NCBI RefSeq assembly: GCF_018914005.1
Contig: NZ_JAHMHI010000001.1
Location: 124,001-188,000, forward strand
Source of the DNA: Mycoplasma zalophi
Lineage (GTDB): Bacteria; Bacillota_I; Bacilli_A; Mycoplasmatales; Metamycoplasmataceae
DNA: 64,000 nucleotides
Direction of reading: 5' to 3'
Made by a program: the position numbers and the translations under genes. The notes under the pieces are model-generated. The model saw only the letters and a program-made list of their open reading frames with translations. It had not been told where the DNA came from and ran no database searches. Of the stretch, positions 84-11,197 are shown in pieces (within the stretch, counting starts at the first letter, position 1; every line of letters starts with the position of its first letter).

Positions 84-2036
84 ATGGACATATTTGAAAA
101 ATTAAATAAAAGTATCAAGGAAGATAATATTGATTTTGAAAGCATAGATAATAAAAACTATGATCAAGAAGGTGAAAATAAATCTAAAAGTTTAGGCATT
201 AAAAATAAAACAAATGAAATTCAAAACAAATTATTACAAGACAATGATTATGGTAAAAAACACAATAAAATCAAGTCATTTGAAAAAGTAGATTTTACAA
301 AAATTACTAAAATTAACTCTTATATGTTTAAAGCAAAAGCAATTCCTAGTACGCTAGTTTTACCAAAAGTTACTGAAATAGATGAAAAAGCATTTAATAA
401 AGTAAAAACACTAACTTCATTAAAAGCAGATAAATTAAAAACTATTGGTCAAGAAGCGTTTGCGTACACATCAATTGAGAAACTGGATTTACCAAAAGTT
501 GTTTCAATAGATCAAAAAGCATTTTATAATGTAAAAACACTAACATCATTGAAAGCAGATAAATTAAAAAGCATTAATGCTGAGGCATTTTATTCAACAT
601 CGATTGAAAAATTAGATTTACCAGAAGTTACAGAAATAGGATTTAAAGCATTTTGTAAAGTAAAAACACTAACTTCATTAAAAGCAGATAAATTAAAAAT
701 TATTGGTCAACGGGCATTTAAAGAAACATCAATTAAGAAATTAACTTTACCAGAAGTTACTGAAATATATGATGGAGCATTTGATGAAACATCAATTAAT
801 GAACTAAATTTACCAAAAGTTACTAAAATAGGTGGTGGAGCATTTTCAGATACATTAATTAAAAAACTAAATTTACCAGAAGTTACTGAAATAGGTGATT
901 TAGCATTTTATGAAGTAAAAACACTAAAATCATTAAAAGCAGATAAATTAAAAACCATTGGTAAAGCAGCATTTTATCAAACATCAATTGAAAAATTAGA
1001 TTTACCAGCAGTTACTAAAATATATGATGGAGCATTTAGAGCTGTAAAAACACTATTATCACTAAAAGCAGATAAATTAAAAATTATTGATGAATGAGCA
1101 TTTCAAGAAACATCAATTGAAAAATTAGATTTACCAGAAGTTACTGAAATAGGTAGTTGAGCATTTAAAGGGGTAAAAACACTAAAATCATTAAAAGCAG
1201 ATAAATTAAAAATTATTGATGAATGAGCATTTCAAGAAACATCAATTGAAAAATTAAATTTACCAGAAGTTACTGAAATAGGTAATTGAGCATTTTATGA
1301 AGTAAAAACACTAAAATCATTAAAAGCAGATAAATTAAAAATTATTAATTGATGAGCATTTGAAAGAACCTCAATTCAGAATTTAAATTTACCAGAAGTT
1401 ACTAAGATAGATATTGAAGCGTTTGATGAAGTAGAAACACTAACTTCATTAAAAGCAGATAAATTAAAAACCATTGGTGCTGGCGCATTTAAATGAACCT
1501 CAATTCAGAATTTAAATTTACCAGAAGTTACTGAAATGGATGATTGAGCATTTTATGAAGTAAAAACACTAACTTCATTAAAAGCAGATAAATTAAAAAC
1601 CATTGGTGCTGGAGCATTTAAATGAACCTCAATTCATAATTTAAATTTACCAGAAGTTACTGAAATAGGTAATTGAGCATTTTATGAAGTAAAAACACTA
1701 ACTTCATTAAAAACAGATAAATTAAAAAACATTGGTAGTGGAGCTTTTCAAGGAACCTCAATTCAGAATTTAAATTTACCAGAAGTTACTAAGATAGGTA
1801 ACGGAGCATTTAGTGCTGTAAAAACACTAAAATCATTAAAAGCAGATAAATTAAAAACCATTGGTAATGGGGCGTTTTATAAAACATCTATTAAACAATT
1901 ATATTTACCTGAAATTGAAAAAATTGGTAAATATGCATTTAAAAATTGTCCTAATCTAAAGATAGCAAAAGTAAAAAAAGGTGCAAAGATAGATAAAGAT
2001 GCATTTGATGAAGATGTTACTATGGAATATATTTAA
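84..2036 (+). CDS. LRR_5 (BspA-like) leucine-rich repeat protein, 650 aa
   Basis: The frame is open from an ATG preceded by GAGG to TAA at 2034, with several in-frame TGA (Trp) codons, the first at 1095. About 75 N-terminal residues are charged and Asn/Lys-rich; after them the protein is built almost wholly of roughly 25 LRR_5-type repeats. These alternate as a 43-residue double unit: one half carries LPEVTEIG..AF, the other VKTLTSLKADKLKTIG..AF. No signal peptide, lipobox or membrane segment is visible, which is odd for a family usually placed on the cell surface, so location and role (adhesion or protein binding is the usual guess) are open. The 129-bp repeats are nearly identical at DNA level and shared with the next gene, so repeat number could change by recombination. 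Confidence 0.85.
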
Positions 2037-2080
2037 TTAAGTTATAAATTAATATAAAAATCTAGGAATAGAGGAAATTT

Positions 2081-3133
2081 ATGGACATATTTGAAAAAAT
2101 AAATAAAAGTATCAAGGAAGATAATATTGATTTTGAAAGCATAGATAATAAAAACTATGATCAGCAAGGTGACAATAAATCTAAAAGCTTAGACATTAAA
2201 AATAAAACAAATGAAATTCAAAACAAATTATCACAAGATAATGATTATGGCGAAGAACATAATAAAATCAAGTCATTTGAAGAAGTAGATTTTACAAAAA
2301 TTACTAAAATTGAACCTTATATGTTCAAAGAAAAAATAACACCTAGTGTACTAGTTTTACCAAAAGTTACTGGGGTAGGTAAAGAAGCATTTTGTAATGC
2401 AAAAACACTAACTTCATTAAAAGCAGATAAATTAAAAACCATTGAAGGATTTGCGTTTGAAGAAACATCAATTAAGGAACTAACTTTACCAGAAGTTACT
2501 AAAATAGGTCTCGGAGCATTTAATGGGGTAAAAACACTAACTTCATTAAAAGCAGATAAATTACAAACCATTGACGCTCTAGCATTTAAAGGAACCTCAA
2601 TTCAGAATTTAAATTTACCAGAAGTTACTAAAATAGGTGAAGTAGCATTTTATGAAGTAGAAACACTAACATCATTAAAGGCAGATAAGTTGGAAATTAT
2701 TGGTAACGATGCATTTGCTAACACATCAATTAACGAACTACACTTACCAGAAGTTACTAAAATAGGTCTCGGAGCATTTAGTTGAGTAAAAACACTAAAA
2801 TCATTAAAAGCAGATAAATTAAAAATTATTGATTGATGAGCATTTACTAGAACATCAATTGAAAAATTAGATTTACCAGAAGTTACTGAAATAGGTAGTT
2901 GAGCATTTGAAGGGTTAAAAACACTAACTTCATTAAAAGCAGATAAATTAAAAACCATTGGTATAGGAGCATTTTTTAAAACATCTATTAAACAATTATA
3001 TTTACCTGGAATTGAAAAAATTGGTAAAGCTGCATTTAAAAACTGTTGTAATCTAAAAAAAGTAAGTCTAAAAAAAGGTGCAATCATAGAAAAAGATGCA
3101 TTTGATAAAGATGTTGCAATAGAATATATTTAG
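2081..3133 (+). CDS. LRR_5 (BspA-like) leucine-rich repeat protein, 350 aa paralogue
   Basis: A tandem paralogue of the 650-aa gene just upstream. The spacer with GAGG ribosome site is the same, and the first 55 codons are almost identical (MDIFEKINKSIKEDNIDFES). It then has about 12 LRR_5 repeats instead of about 25. TGA codons (first at 2783) read as Trp; stop TAG at 3131. No export signal is visible. The size difference with a shared 5' end and C-terminal cap (FKTSIKQLYLPGIEKIGK) is what unequal crossing-over between 129-bp units would produce. Function is not known beyond the repeat fold. Confidence 0.83.
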
Positions 3134-3541: not shown

Positions 3542-4797
3542 CTAAAATTTGTTTCCTAGAAGAAACTTATTTAATTGCAAAAATAACTTGTGAATTTGTA
3601 AAAGTTCACTAAAAATGCTTTCTATTAGCGGAATTACTTCTGCTGGATTTTTATATTCATTATTTAGAAGTTTTTGAATTTTTATAATATTGTCACTAGT
3701 GAATTTTGCATTTATATAATATAAATATGCTAAATGTCGTATATTAATATCAGTTTGATCAAATCCTTTTATAATTAATCATATTTAAATCGAAGTTAAT
3801 TGTTCACCTACTGGTGTTCTTGCTTCATAAATTTTATTGTTTGTTACAAAACAAAGTTTTCCATCAGAATCTTCTGCTAGTTCTATTTATCATTTATCAT
3901 GCACATAAACTCTGTTTCCTTTTTCATCAAATGGTGCTAGAAACTGGTTTTGATACTTAACAACACCTTTTATTATTTTTCTTTTGATTTTTAAAATCAT
4001 TTTATTTTTTAATTTAGTTTCATCATATTTTCTAAATACATTAAGTTTTTTATTTTCAGTTTTATTGAATTTATTGTTATAAAATTCAGTAATTTTATCA
4101 ATATTATTGTTTATATAACCTCAATTTATTTAATGTTATTGTTAAAGAAAAAAAGCGGAAAATTTATTTGTACAATTAAAAAAGATCTTTTACTGTGGTT
4201 TAAGAGTTGGATTTAAAGAACAAGCTAAATTAATATCTTTTTTTCAAATAAAGCTTTTGCAAATCTAGTTTCATATCCGTATCCATTGTGTATTGTTGTT
4301 TTTTTTATCTGAATAAATATTTTCAGGTAAGCAATATTTTTAAATATAATTCCCTTAATTTTTGGTAACCTAAATTTGTTTGTTTTTTTGAAACATATAA
4401 TGCAAGTAATTTACCGGTGCTTGCCTGAACTGCATAATATAAATAAATTTCCGAATCTGTATTATCTTCATTTTAAAGAGTTTTAGTGATAATTTTTTGT
4501 GAATTGTTGTTTTCAAAATTTCATTAACTCTTTGTTAATGTCAATAAAATCTTAATCATTATATTTTTGTACATTTTTGTTATATTTATTTCTATGATCT
4601 ATTTTGTATTTTAAATCATTTCCTAAACTAAGAATTATGATTTTTTGTCGTATTTTTTTTATTGTTCCTATTGAACATTCTAATTTATTTGCTAAATGGT
4701 TTTTAATTTATTTAAAATTGTTATTAATGTAATTATTAGAAAACTTTTTTGTTTTATATAAAGTTGAATCTTTATTTTTTAGATAAATAGTACTCAT
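3542..4797 (-). pseudogene. Degenerate DDE transposase, IS1202/ISNCY-like
   Basis: Read on the minus strand from an ATG at 4797 (MSTIYLKNKDSTLYK), the sequence gives a helix-turn-helix-like start (ANKLECSIGTIKKIRQK). It then gives the catalytic-core signature of this transposase group (YYAVQASTGKLLALYVSKKQ, then a GYQKLREL segment), and a C-terminal beta-rich end (KYQNQFLAPFDEKGNRVYVH) like that of the element at 8.4 kb. Many stops and frameshifts interrupt it, so it is dead. A GGACAAA motif occurs on both sides of the start, but complete terminal repeats could not be delimited. Confidence 0.6.
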
Positions 4798-8338: not shown

Positions 8339-9810
8339 AATTAAAAAACAAAAGTTCCTAAGGTAAATAAAAAAACAAAAATTCCAATTTCTAATAAAGT
8401 ATTAACGTAATGAAAAAAAGTAATTACGAAATCAACAAAAAATATCAATTGGAATATATAAAAAATAATCCAAAAGTAACAGCCAGAACATTGTTGCTGA
8501 CATAACATTTCAACAAAAACAATTTATAAACTTAGAAAACAATTAACAAATGAAAGTCAAATAATAATTACGCATAAGAATTTAAAAAATCAGCATTCAA
8601 AAAAATTAGCATTAGTCAAATTGATTGAATAATTGAACACTATTACTCTATATTAACTGAAATATACAAGGATAAATATTTAGATTTTTATTTAAACTTA
8701 AGATATTTTTATCAGTACGAAATACCTGAAGATCTTAAGAAAAATATGACTTATGCTAGTATGATCAAAAACCTAAAAGCGCGCGGATTTTACACATATG
8801 GTATGAGTAAAAACGGAAGAAAAGAAGCACGCAAAAATTTAGCAAATTTATCTAAAAAAGATGAATCAAAAACAATCATGTTTATCAATAAAATTTCAAA
8901 AGAACTCGATAAAAATATTGCTTTTGTTTCAAGAAAAAATAAAGGTTCTTATTTAAATTTTGGAGAGATAGTTGAAATTGATGCAACCGAACATTGATGA
9001 AATTGCAATAGTAAGTTTAATATATATGTTGCTGTTGACCGAGCGACAGGAATTATATTAGCTTTACATGCAGAAAAAGAAGAAACAAATCAAGGGTACA
9101 TGATTTTGCTTGAAGATTTATTTTCAAAATGAGGTTTTCCAGTCTTAATAAGAACTAATAAAAGAAGAACTTTTTATGGAAATGAAGCAAAAAACACACC
9201 TTTGTAGAAGAACATGAGTAAAAAGAAGATAAAAGTGGAATCTTCAAGTGTTGCTATATTTAAACCTCTAGTTGAAAGAACCAATGACTCAATTCAACGA
9301 TTTTTCCCTATTCATTTTAAAAATTTAGGTATTAAAACAGCGGCAGATTTTAACAAAAATAAAGAAGTTTTAATCAATGACTTTCATCAATGAAACAATA
9401 AATTTTATGCCCATAAGCAAAACATTTTCAGAACATGTGACACTTCCAAAAATGAACATAAGGTTTATCTGGAAATTAAAAGAAAAGCTTATGCTTCAAC
9501 ATTTCAGTATCAAAACCAGTATTATGTTGCAGTGAACGAAAAAGGACAAAAATTAAAGATCTGACCTGATGATGATGCACGAATAATGATAGATAGTAAA
9601 GGCGAAATCAAAATAAGTATCAACAACATTATCTTTAGTACTTTAATTCTAAAAGGTGATGAATTAAATGATTTTCAAAAATTTTGTTTGCAATACAAAA
9701 TATCATCAACTGAGATCTTTTCCAAACCTATGTATAAACTTTTTAAAAACAGCAGAATATTTGCAAATAATCTATATAACGTTATACATAAATTAGAAGA
9801 AAAAATATAA
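8339..9810 (+). mobile_element. IS1202/ISNCY-like insertion element, fullest copy
   Basis: The left end carries two copies of the family terminal motif (AAAAAACAAAAGTTCC and AAAAAACAAAAATTCC, 22 bp apart) also seen at 11.8 kb and 18.0 kb, followed by the single long transposase frame. I could not find the matching right terminal repeat after the transposase stop at 9810, so that end is provisional. Confidence 0.6.
8410..9810 (+). pseudogene. IS1202-like DDE transposase, inactivated
   Basis: The frame starts MKKSNYEINKKYQLEYIK with an N-terminal helix-turn-helix (STKTIYKLRKQL). It continues into the catalytic domain: EIDATEHWW (first Asp), a DRATGIILALHAEKEETNQG segment, and PLVERTNDSIQ (Glu). 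The second catalytic position, usually IRTDKRRTFYG, reads IRTNKRRTFYG, so Asp is replaced by Asn. There is also a frameshift near 8508 and an in-frame TAG near 9205. The C-terminal beta domain (YQNQYYVAVNEKGQKLKIW) is intact. Overall it is a dead transposase. Confidence 0.72.
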
Positions 9811-10269: not shown

Positions 10270-11001
10270 TTAATACAAAGTTTTTAATACCGGCTTTACA
10301 TTCCTAATTTTGAGTATAGTATATTCTTTGATATTGTTTTTTGATTTAATTATTATTGAAGTTGGTATATATGTATTATACTGATAATTATCAGAAGTTA
10401 TATCTCTTAATACCATTATCGGAATAAAACCATTTGTATTGTTTTCTCAAGATAACGAAAATGTTTTTTGATTATTATTGTTAGTTTTATTACTTCAAAA
10501 ATAAAAACTATCACTTTCATTATAAATTAATTCAATAAATTGAACAAAAAACTCAATTCTAGAAATTAAAAAGGTAAAAAAATTATTAGGAGAATATTTA
10601 TCTTTAAGTTTAACTTTTTCTCCTAATTTTTTTTCTGAATTAATAGTTTTCTCTGAAATTATTTTTCAATTATTAATTAGTAATCTTTCTAAATAAGATA
10701 AAGGATCATTATTATTTATTATTTTATTTATAAAGGTTTTTATGTATTTATAATCATTGGTTTTAGTCTTTTTTTCTAGCTTTTGTCAATAGTGAAGTCC
10801 TAAAATATGTTTTATATTTTTATTTTTTATTTGTATTAAATAGTCTCTGCCTTCTGAATTTTTAATATTTTCCATAAAAATATTTAATTTATTTTCAAAA
10901 TGAATTTCTTTGTTTTCTTTGTTTTGCTGATAAAAAATTTTATCTAATATATTTTTCAAATTTAAAAAAATGCATTTAAGTTTTTCGTTATTGATGTTCA
11001 T
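10270..11001 (-). CDS. Hypothetical protein, 243 aa; possible PBECR-type nuclease
   Basis: An intact minus-strand frame (ATG 11001, TAA 10270) with four TGA-Trp codons; it is missed entirely if TGA is read as stop. The protein is soluble, with no signal or membrane segment. A central IKNKNIKHILGLHYW, later ISRIEFFVQFIELI, and a C-terminal strand-rich part with NTYIPTSIIIK recall, by eye only, the layout of phage-associated BECR-fold (PBECR4-like) nuclease domains. That is tentative: no alignment was possible and catalytic residues are not assigned. The ribosome site is weak (AGGA, 5-nt spacing) and follows directly on a terminator and structured RNA. The gene is alone in its unit, and its intactness inside a wrecked region suggests it is recent or maintained. 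Confidence 0.75.
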
Positions 11002-11011
11002 AAAATCCTAT

Positions 11012-11051
11012 AAAAAAATGATGGGTTATATAGCTAACAACAGCCCCCATC
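11012..11051 (-). terminator. Intrinsic terminator immediately upstream of the 243-aa ORF
   Basis: Minus strand: GATGGG (11051-11046) pairs with CCCATC (11025-11020), with an inner GCT/AGC helix, then ATTTTTTT. The U-run abuts the ribosome-binding site of the ORF starting at 11001, so expression needs read-through or antitermination. Confidence 0.7.
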
Positions 11052-11118
11052 CTATAACAAATTTAGCAACCTTATTTTATTAGTGTGTGGCAATGCTCGC
11101 AGGTCGGTTGTTCCACCT
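11012..11118 (-). ncRNA. Structured leader RNA ending in a terminator before the 243-aa ORF
   Basis: Minus strand, just after a TGA+TATATT extended -10 (11128-11120). The ~105-nt RNA is clearly richer in G+C than its surroundings. Its first ~40 nt can fold as GUGG…CCAC or AGGU…ACCU, and it ends in a strong terminator whose U-run stops 10 nt before the ORF start. It is either a small RNA or a cis-acting attenuator/antitoxin-type leader. A 17-codon ORF (MCDIFRWNNRPASIATH) overlaps its 5' side without a ribosome site. Confidence 0.5.
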
Positions 11119-11197
11119 AAATATATCACACATATAAGTATGATATCATATTTTTGATATTTTTAAAAAATTTATCATCTTAAAATAATTTTAATAT

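Follow-up and report, generated by a model that had tools for sequence, protein, structure and literature searches.

Organization of the locus

The 64,000-nucleotide stretch of the Mycoplasma zalophi genome analysed here (contig NZ_JAHMHI010000001.1, positions 124,001 to 188,000; hereafter the window) carries on its minus strand an intact open reading frame (ORF) for a protein of 243 amino acids, preceded by a promoter, a small structured RNA and an intrinsic terminator (Table 1). The host is a mollicute with a genome of 836 kb and genetic code 4, under which the ORF runs from an ATG at 11001 to a stop at 10270 and four TGA codons are read as tryptophan. The arrangement of one promoter, an RNA gene upstream of the ORF and a terminator between the two is that of type III toxin-antitoxin loci, and the only exception among the homologues described below is on contig 28 of genome G163 (G and L numbers designate genomes and loci). 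Alignment of 19 leaders shows almost no variation at the T, A and A of the -10 hexamer.

The G+C content of the RNA is 40% versus 24% for the window, a value reached by only 0.8% of 112-nucleotide segments. A preliminary description of this DNA had listed the intact frame, the extended -10 element and a strong terminator whose U-run reaches the ribosome-binding site, all of which were verified, and had called the RNA both rich in G+C and foldable. The high G+C content stands, but the minimum free energy of the leader was not better than that of dinucleotide shuffles (z of -1.34 for 146 nucleotides and +0.34 for 109 nucleotides), so foldability cannot be claimed from the window sequence alone, and the structure of the RNA was established instead by conservation and covariation among homologues. 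Comparison with Rfam gave no family match to the RNA, and only chance matches to the leader.

Table 1. Features of the RNA-protein locus (window coordinates)
Feature	Position	Strand	Basis or remark
Extended -10 promoter element TGaTATCAT	11140..11148	-	Sequence
Structured RNA, probable transcription start to end of terminator U-run	11012..11134 (start approximate)	-	About 120 nucleotides; near-identical in M. maculosa
Helix D, 5' strand UGUGUG	11127..11132 (partner 11084-11089)	-	Family permutation test
Hairpin A, AGGUGG-AACAAC-CGACCU	11101..11118	-	Among homologues, both bases changed in 5/6 pairs
Hairpin A loop AACAAC, kissing-loop partner 1	11107..11112	-	Complementary to terminator loop
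Helix B, 5' strand AGCA-UU-GCC	11089..11097 (partner 11065-11071)	-	Pairing frequency
Helix D, 3' strand CACACA, within helix B loop (giving H-type pseudoknot)	11084..11089	-	Permutation test
A/U-rich pseudoknot loop CUAAUAAAAUAA	11072..11083	-	Among the most invariant columns of alignment A5
Helix B, 3' strand GGUUGCU	11065..11071	-	Pairing frequency
Intrinsic terminator hairpin	11020..11051 (stem 11051-11046/11025-11020)	-	Sequence, folding, double-changed pairs
Terminator loop GUUGUU, kissing-loop partner 2	11036..11041	-	Comparative pairing
Terminator U-run, T7	11018-11012	-	Sequence
Shine-Dalgarno AGGA, directly after U-run	11006..11009	-	Sequence
PBECR4-like protein P0001, 243 amino acids, predicted toxin; candidate active-site residues H65, T210/S215	10270..11001	-	Profile comparison and invariance

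Distribution of the RNA and its linkage to the protein

The first relative was the single match of a tblastn search against plasmids, on 'plasmid 2' of Mycoplasmopsis maculosa (NZ_LR215038.1). The two proteins share 42% identity in the local match and 48% when aligned globally, and the M. maculosa leader matches the window RNA at almost every letter; the RNA is better conserved than the adjoining protein. A covariance model built from these two sequences gave good matches in about 12 genomes, nearly all belonging to a single further genus within the family, with up to nine matches in one genome. A second model, built from 19 copies, gave 30 matches at E<=2e-5, spread over 15 of 320 genomes from the order; one of them is another copy in the genome from which the window comes. 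Weak matches outside the family (G218, G243, G312, G169) were discarded as chance, no leader being recognisable by eye.

A protein profile search identified clear homologues in ten genomes (G000, G143, G116, G162, G148, G117, G138, G175, G163 and G155), and the RNA adjoins the protein in every one. The preliminary description had held that homologues without a conserved upstream RNA would count against an RNA-controlled unit; the RNA lies upstream except in G163 contig 28, where it is 3' of the ORF and has its own TATAAT, while the ORF has a separate -10 element beside its ATG. In the distant homologues (G138, G175 and G163 contig 28) the RNA differs in sequence and has the same architecture. 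The RNA is also found without the protein, in G143, G162, G164, G115, G153 and G155 as well as at the second site in the window's own genome, as might be expected of an independent mobile small RNA that lies beside the ORF by chance. That explanation is very improbable, given that the protein was never without the RNA in the ten genomes and that the RNAs of the distant homologues have diverged correspondingly.

Stand-alone copies of the RNA with promoter and terminator are frequent, and several homologues of the protein are frame-broken while their RNA is intact. Together with the downstream RNA of G163 contig 28, these observations fit a trans-acting antidote. A cis-acting attenuator or riboswitch, the RNA of which would have no function of its own and the leader of which would only gate read-through in response to a ligand or stress, would account for the terminator between promoter and ORF and for the presence of its hairpin in the conserved fold, but is an unlikely explanation of an RNA that can be located downstream of the ORF under its own promoter and that has many copies, among them the tandem pairs of G155, in which promoter and terminator are followed by no ORF; no conserved antiterminator was noticed either, though a systematic search for one was not made. 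The downstream RNA and the many stand-alone copies make it probable that the RNA is active in trans and is more than an attenuator, and termination that also limits expression of the ORF would be compatible with these facts.

The tandem pairs of G155 consist of two RNA versions and occur in four places on contig 1 (L048-L051), with no adjoining toxin gene, beside repeated lipoprotein-type genes. The other copy in the M. zalophi genome (L043:2249-2365(+)) is separated by about 0.8 kb from an RNA of the DUF3800-I family (RF02969) on the opposite strand (L043:1316-1431(-)). DUF3800-I RNA is likewise small, terminator-ended and present in the same genomes, but its sequence and fold differ from those of the window RNA.

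Comparative structure of the RNA

The named helices were tested on an alignment of 19 RNA copies (alignment A5). In addition to the changes on both sides of hairpin A, the inner stem of the terminator has double changes in all three of its pairs. Between the loop of hairpin A and the terminator loop, a kissing interaction is paired in 95.5% of cells and perfect in 15 of the 19 RNAs; four of its six pairs are double-changed, and none of 500 shuffles was as high in percent paired or in covariation score. When the partner was slid along the RNA, pairing was only 7-67%. The hairpin loop occurs as AACAAC, AAUAAC, CACAAC, CAUAAC and CAUACC, each with its own complement; distant homologues keep the interaction in other letters (CAUAAC/GUUAUG, CAUACC/GGUAUG), as does an extra copy in G157 (L097, AUAUUAC/GUAAUAU), and a copy in G310 (L084) keeps it only in part. 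Such complementarity is modestly unlikely in a single sequence (about 2-4% in shuffles), and the strength of the evidence comes from its preservation through sequence changes.

The 5' and 3' strands of helix D pair better with each other than in any of 2000 permutations of the 5' regions (0/2000 as good), with variants CUCACAUU/AAUGUGAG in G143c and CACACUAAAAU/AUUUUAGUGUG in G164. Helix B is paired in 82.5% of cells and almost invariant in the close family, with no double changes counted; compensatory versions were seen by eye only, in distant homologues (GCCA/UGGU, GCCG/CGGU, CCCUA/UAGGG). Because helices D and B cross, the RNA is an H-type pseudoknot by comparative evidence, like the antitoxin RNAs of type III; its first loop contains hairpin A, and its crossing loop is conserved and A/U-rich. 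A further pairing, of CAACC in hairpin A with a downstream GGUUG, was dropped as broken by the G155 and G143c variants.

The pattern of variation also bears on whether the RNA might be a cofactor or guide in a ribonucleoprotein that serves in defence and is switched on by phage nucleic acid, with orphan RNAs widening its range. RNA arrays and orphan copies do exist, and work discussed in PMC12373285 connects AbiF, whose layout is the same, with the origin of the RNA-guided Cas13. No variable spacer-like stretch is present, however, the variable loops remaining mutually complementary within each RNA, and frame-broken protein genes with intact RNA better match an antidote, so that such a guide is decidedly unlikely.

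Relation of the protein to PBECR4

A profile of the homologues was compared with ten proteins (alignment A11) of the PBECR4 family (PF18813, phage Barnase-EndoU-ColicinE5/D-RelE-like nuclease 4), giving a match over 69 columns with an E value of 2.7e-5 and a score of 38.8, against a maximum of 16.6 in 60 column shuffles and 8.2 on reversal; the G138 member alone matched PBECR4 with an E value of 3.2e-6. The weak likeness to PBECR nucleases in the preliminary description is therefore upheld as a remote one. An N-terminal helix, an HL-x-G motif with H, a C-terminal T/S and occurrence as a solo gene on mobile elements are also shared with PBECR4. Seven homologues have N40, L55, I56, H65, G68, Y71, N111, I201, T210 and S215 in common, from which candidate active-site residues were chosen by the active-site pattern of PBECR (PMC5512222).

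The PF18813 gathering cut-off was not reached by the protein or by anything in its genome, and a PF18813 search of 97 relatives gave two sub-threshold matches; phmmer found only the protein itself in 97 relatives, no relative was found in the viral contigs searched, and a class-wide protein profile search gave weak matches only, mostly parts of long ORFs. No similarity to ToxN, CptN, TenpN or AbiQ was found in Pfam, NCBIfam, PADLOC or PDB sequences, and the structural models are poor for fold comparison. The better of two AlphaFold models is predicted to have helices followed by C-terminal strands; Foldseek gave one match in BFVD (A0A097BYD4, probability 1.00, template modelling score about 0.5, with a weak query model), and BrnT, a RelE-like toxin, was among weak VIA matches at a Z of 2.8, not above noise. 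Judged by profile, the protein appears to be remotely related to PBECR4 and a predicted BECR-fold ribonuclease (RNase), although by cut-off it is not a member of PF18813; the fold stays a prediction because the AlphaFold models are weak.

RNA leaders of PBECR4 genes on plasmids and phages

The sample of Pfam PBECR4 genes comprised 14 loci; twelve loci were scanned by script for terminators. In all three of the chromosomal PBECR4 genes the start codon is preceded by a promoter, an RNA and a terminator. A terminator lies within 45 nucleotides of the start codon in 8 of the 12 scanned loci (17-32 nucleotides or close) and at 58 nucleotides in another, but a terminator alone is weak, only suggestive evidence, since 6 of 20 neighbouring genes also have one within 45 nucleotides upstream. 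Tandem repeats and the Rfam drum RNA provide stronger evidence. Repeats of 52-57 nucleotides, 82-96% identical, precede the terminator at L098, L108, L110 and L111, and a weaker repeat pair is present at L105; the repeats of these five loci were all beyond 100 shuffles, and L103 was borderline. At three other loci the gene is directly preceded by the Rfam drum RNA (RF02958; L099:2029-2134(-), L101:1335-1431, L102:1338-1435), which is structured and terminator-ended like the window RNA but is a different RNA, with no match in the window.

PBECR4 genes also occur on plasmids of Enterococcus, Macrococcoides and Butyrivibrio, on one of Avibacterium and in phages. The L110 gene comes from a vanA plasmid of Enterococcus faecium, and one member is matched by 92 plasmid records. 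A pairing of such a gene with an RNA also appears to be present on plasmids and phages of enterococci. The Enterococcus phage record of L105 contains, near its PBECR4-like gene, three matches to the RatA RNA antitoxin (L105:1098-1185, 2175-2260, 2615-2700).

To our knowledge, RNA control of PBECR4 has not been reported; a literature search for PBECR4 found nothing within a coverage that excluded most subscription papers and preprints. The term 'noncoding RNA' does not occur in the source paper for PBECR (PMC5512222).

A proposed type-III-like module

As far as its anatomy shows, the locus works like a type III module, and we consider it likely that it is a type-III-like toxin-antitoxin module in which a PBECR4-like protein would be the toxin and the RNA would bind and neutralise it. 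The basis of this reading is the gene layout, the conservation and covariation of the RNA, its linkage to the protein, the remote relation to PBECR4 and the leaders of PBECR4 genes. The RNA-controlled unit of type III layout put forward in the preliminary description has gained in substance, with an RNA beside every homologue found and RNA-terminator leaders before most of the sampled PBECR4 genes.

In the proposed mechanism, the promoter at about 11145 would drive an RNA of about 120 nucleotides that mostly ends at its own terminator, and occasional read-through would yield mRNA for the predicted 243-residue PBECR4-like endoribonuclease. The terminated RNA would fold into the H-type pseudoknot, with its D and B helices, the A/U-rich crossing loop and a first-loop hairpin kissing the terminator loop, and in this compact form would bind the protein and block its active site. 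Should synthesis or stability of the RNA be lost, as during phage infection or with loss of a mobile element, the RNase would be set free.

The locus resembles known type III systems (ToxIN/AbiQ, CptIN, TenpIN) in its order of promoter, RNA, Rho-independent terminator and toxin ORF, in its mobile-element setting and in its pseudoknotted RNA with an A-rich loop (PMC5086642). It differs in that its predicted toxin resembles PBECR4, similarity to ToxN, CptN or TenpN not having been detected, and in that its RNA is a single non-repeated unit with an added kissing loop to the terminator. It is a candidate rather than an established member of type III, because the mycoplasma RNA has no repeats and its neutralising activity is a prediction.

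An experimental precedent for such a layout is AbiF-RCd22 of Clostridioides difficile (abiF RNA, RF03085), which has the same gene order, an RNA of about 100-130 nucleotides and a terminator before the toxin ORF; its RNA neutralises in cis and in trans, and termination also limits expression (PMC12373285). AbiF is a HEPN RNase, however, the window has no match to RF03085, and the protein has none to Abi_2. Pieces of AbiF neighbour the PBECR4-like gene in M. maculosa. Between them and that gene lie three more terminator-ended, small-RNA-like stretches recognised by eye (L004:4178-4315, 4535-4640, 4660-4790), possibly further antitoxin RNAs.

Several observations weigh against a type-III-like module. 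Tandem repeats like those of classical type III antitoxins are absent from the window RNA and the other mycoplasma RNAs, as the preliminary description had stated for the window. The protein falls below every threshold in Pfam, NCBIfam, PHROG and PADLOC. The AlphaFold models are poor (predicted local distance difference test scores of 55 and 65), and Foldseek gave no PDB match. To these are added the terminators before neighbouring genes and the PBECR4 genes at L104, L107 and L109, which have no evident RNA.

A broader reading, for which we see the case as evenly poised, is that PBECR4 and PBECR4-like proteins of plasmids, phages and mycoplasma chromosomes form one more broad class of toxins of type-III-like kind, every one kept in check by an antitoxin RNA. 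Under this reading the nuclease family has at least three unrelated designs of RNA as partners: a kissing-loop pseudoknot, two tandem repeats of about 53 nucleotides, and drum RNA. If true, this would provide a partner and a function for a Pfam family that is common on enterococcal plasmids and annotated only as a predicted nuclease, would explain what the orphan drum RNA does, and would add an RNA antitoxin whose kissing loop is backed by covariation. It would also widen type III beyond ToxIN, CptIN and TenpIN, with a bearing on plasmid maintenance and phage defence.

Other features of the window

Elsewhere in the window, two adjoining BspA-type leucine-rich-repeat proteins are encoded at 84-3133, the first of which was confirmed by PF13306, and a transposase with a weak rve match is split over two frames at 8746-9810.
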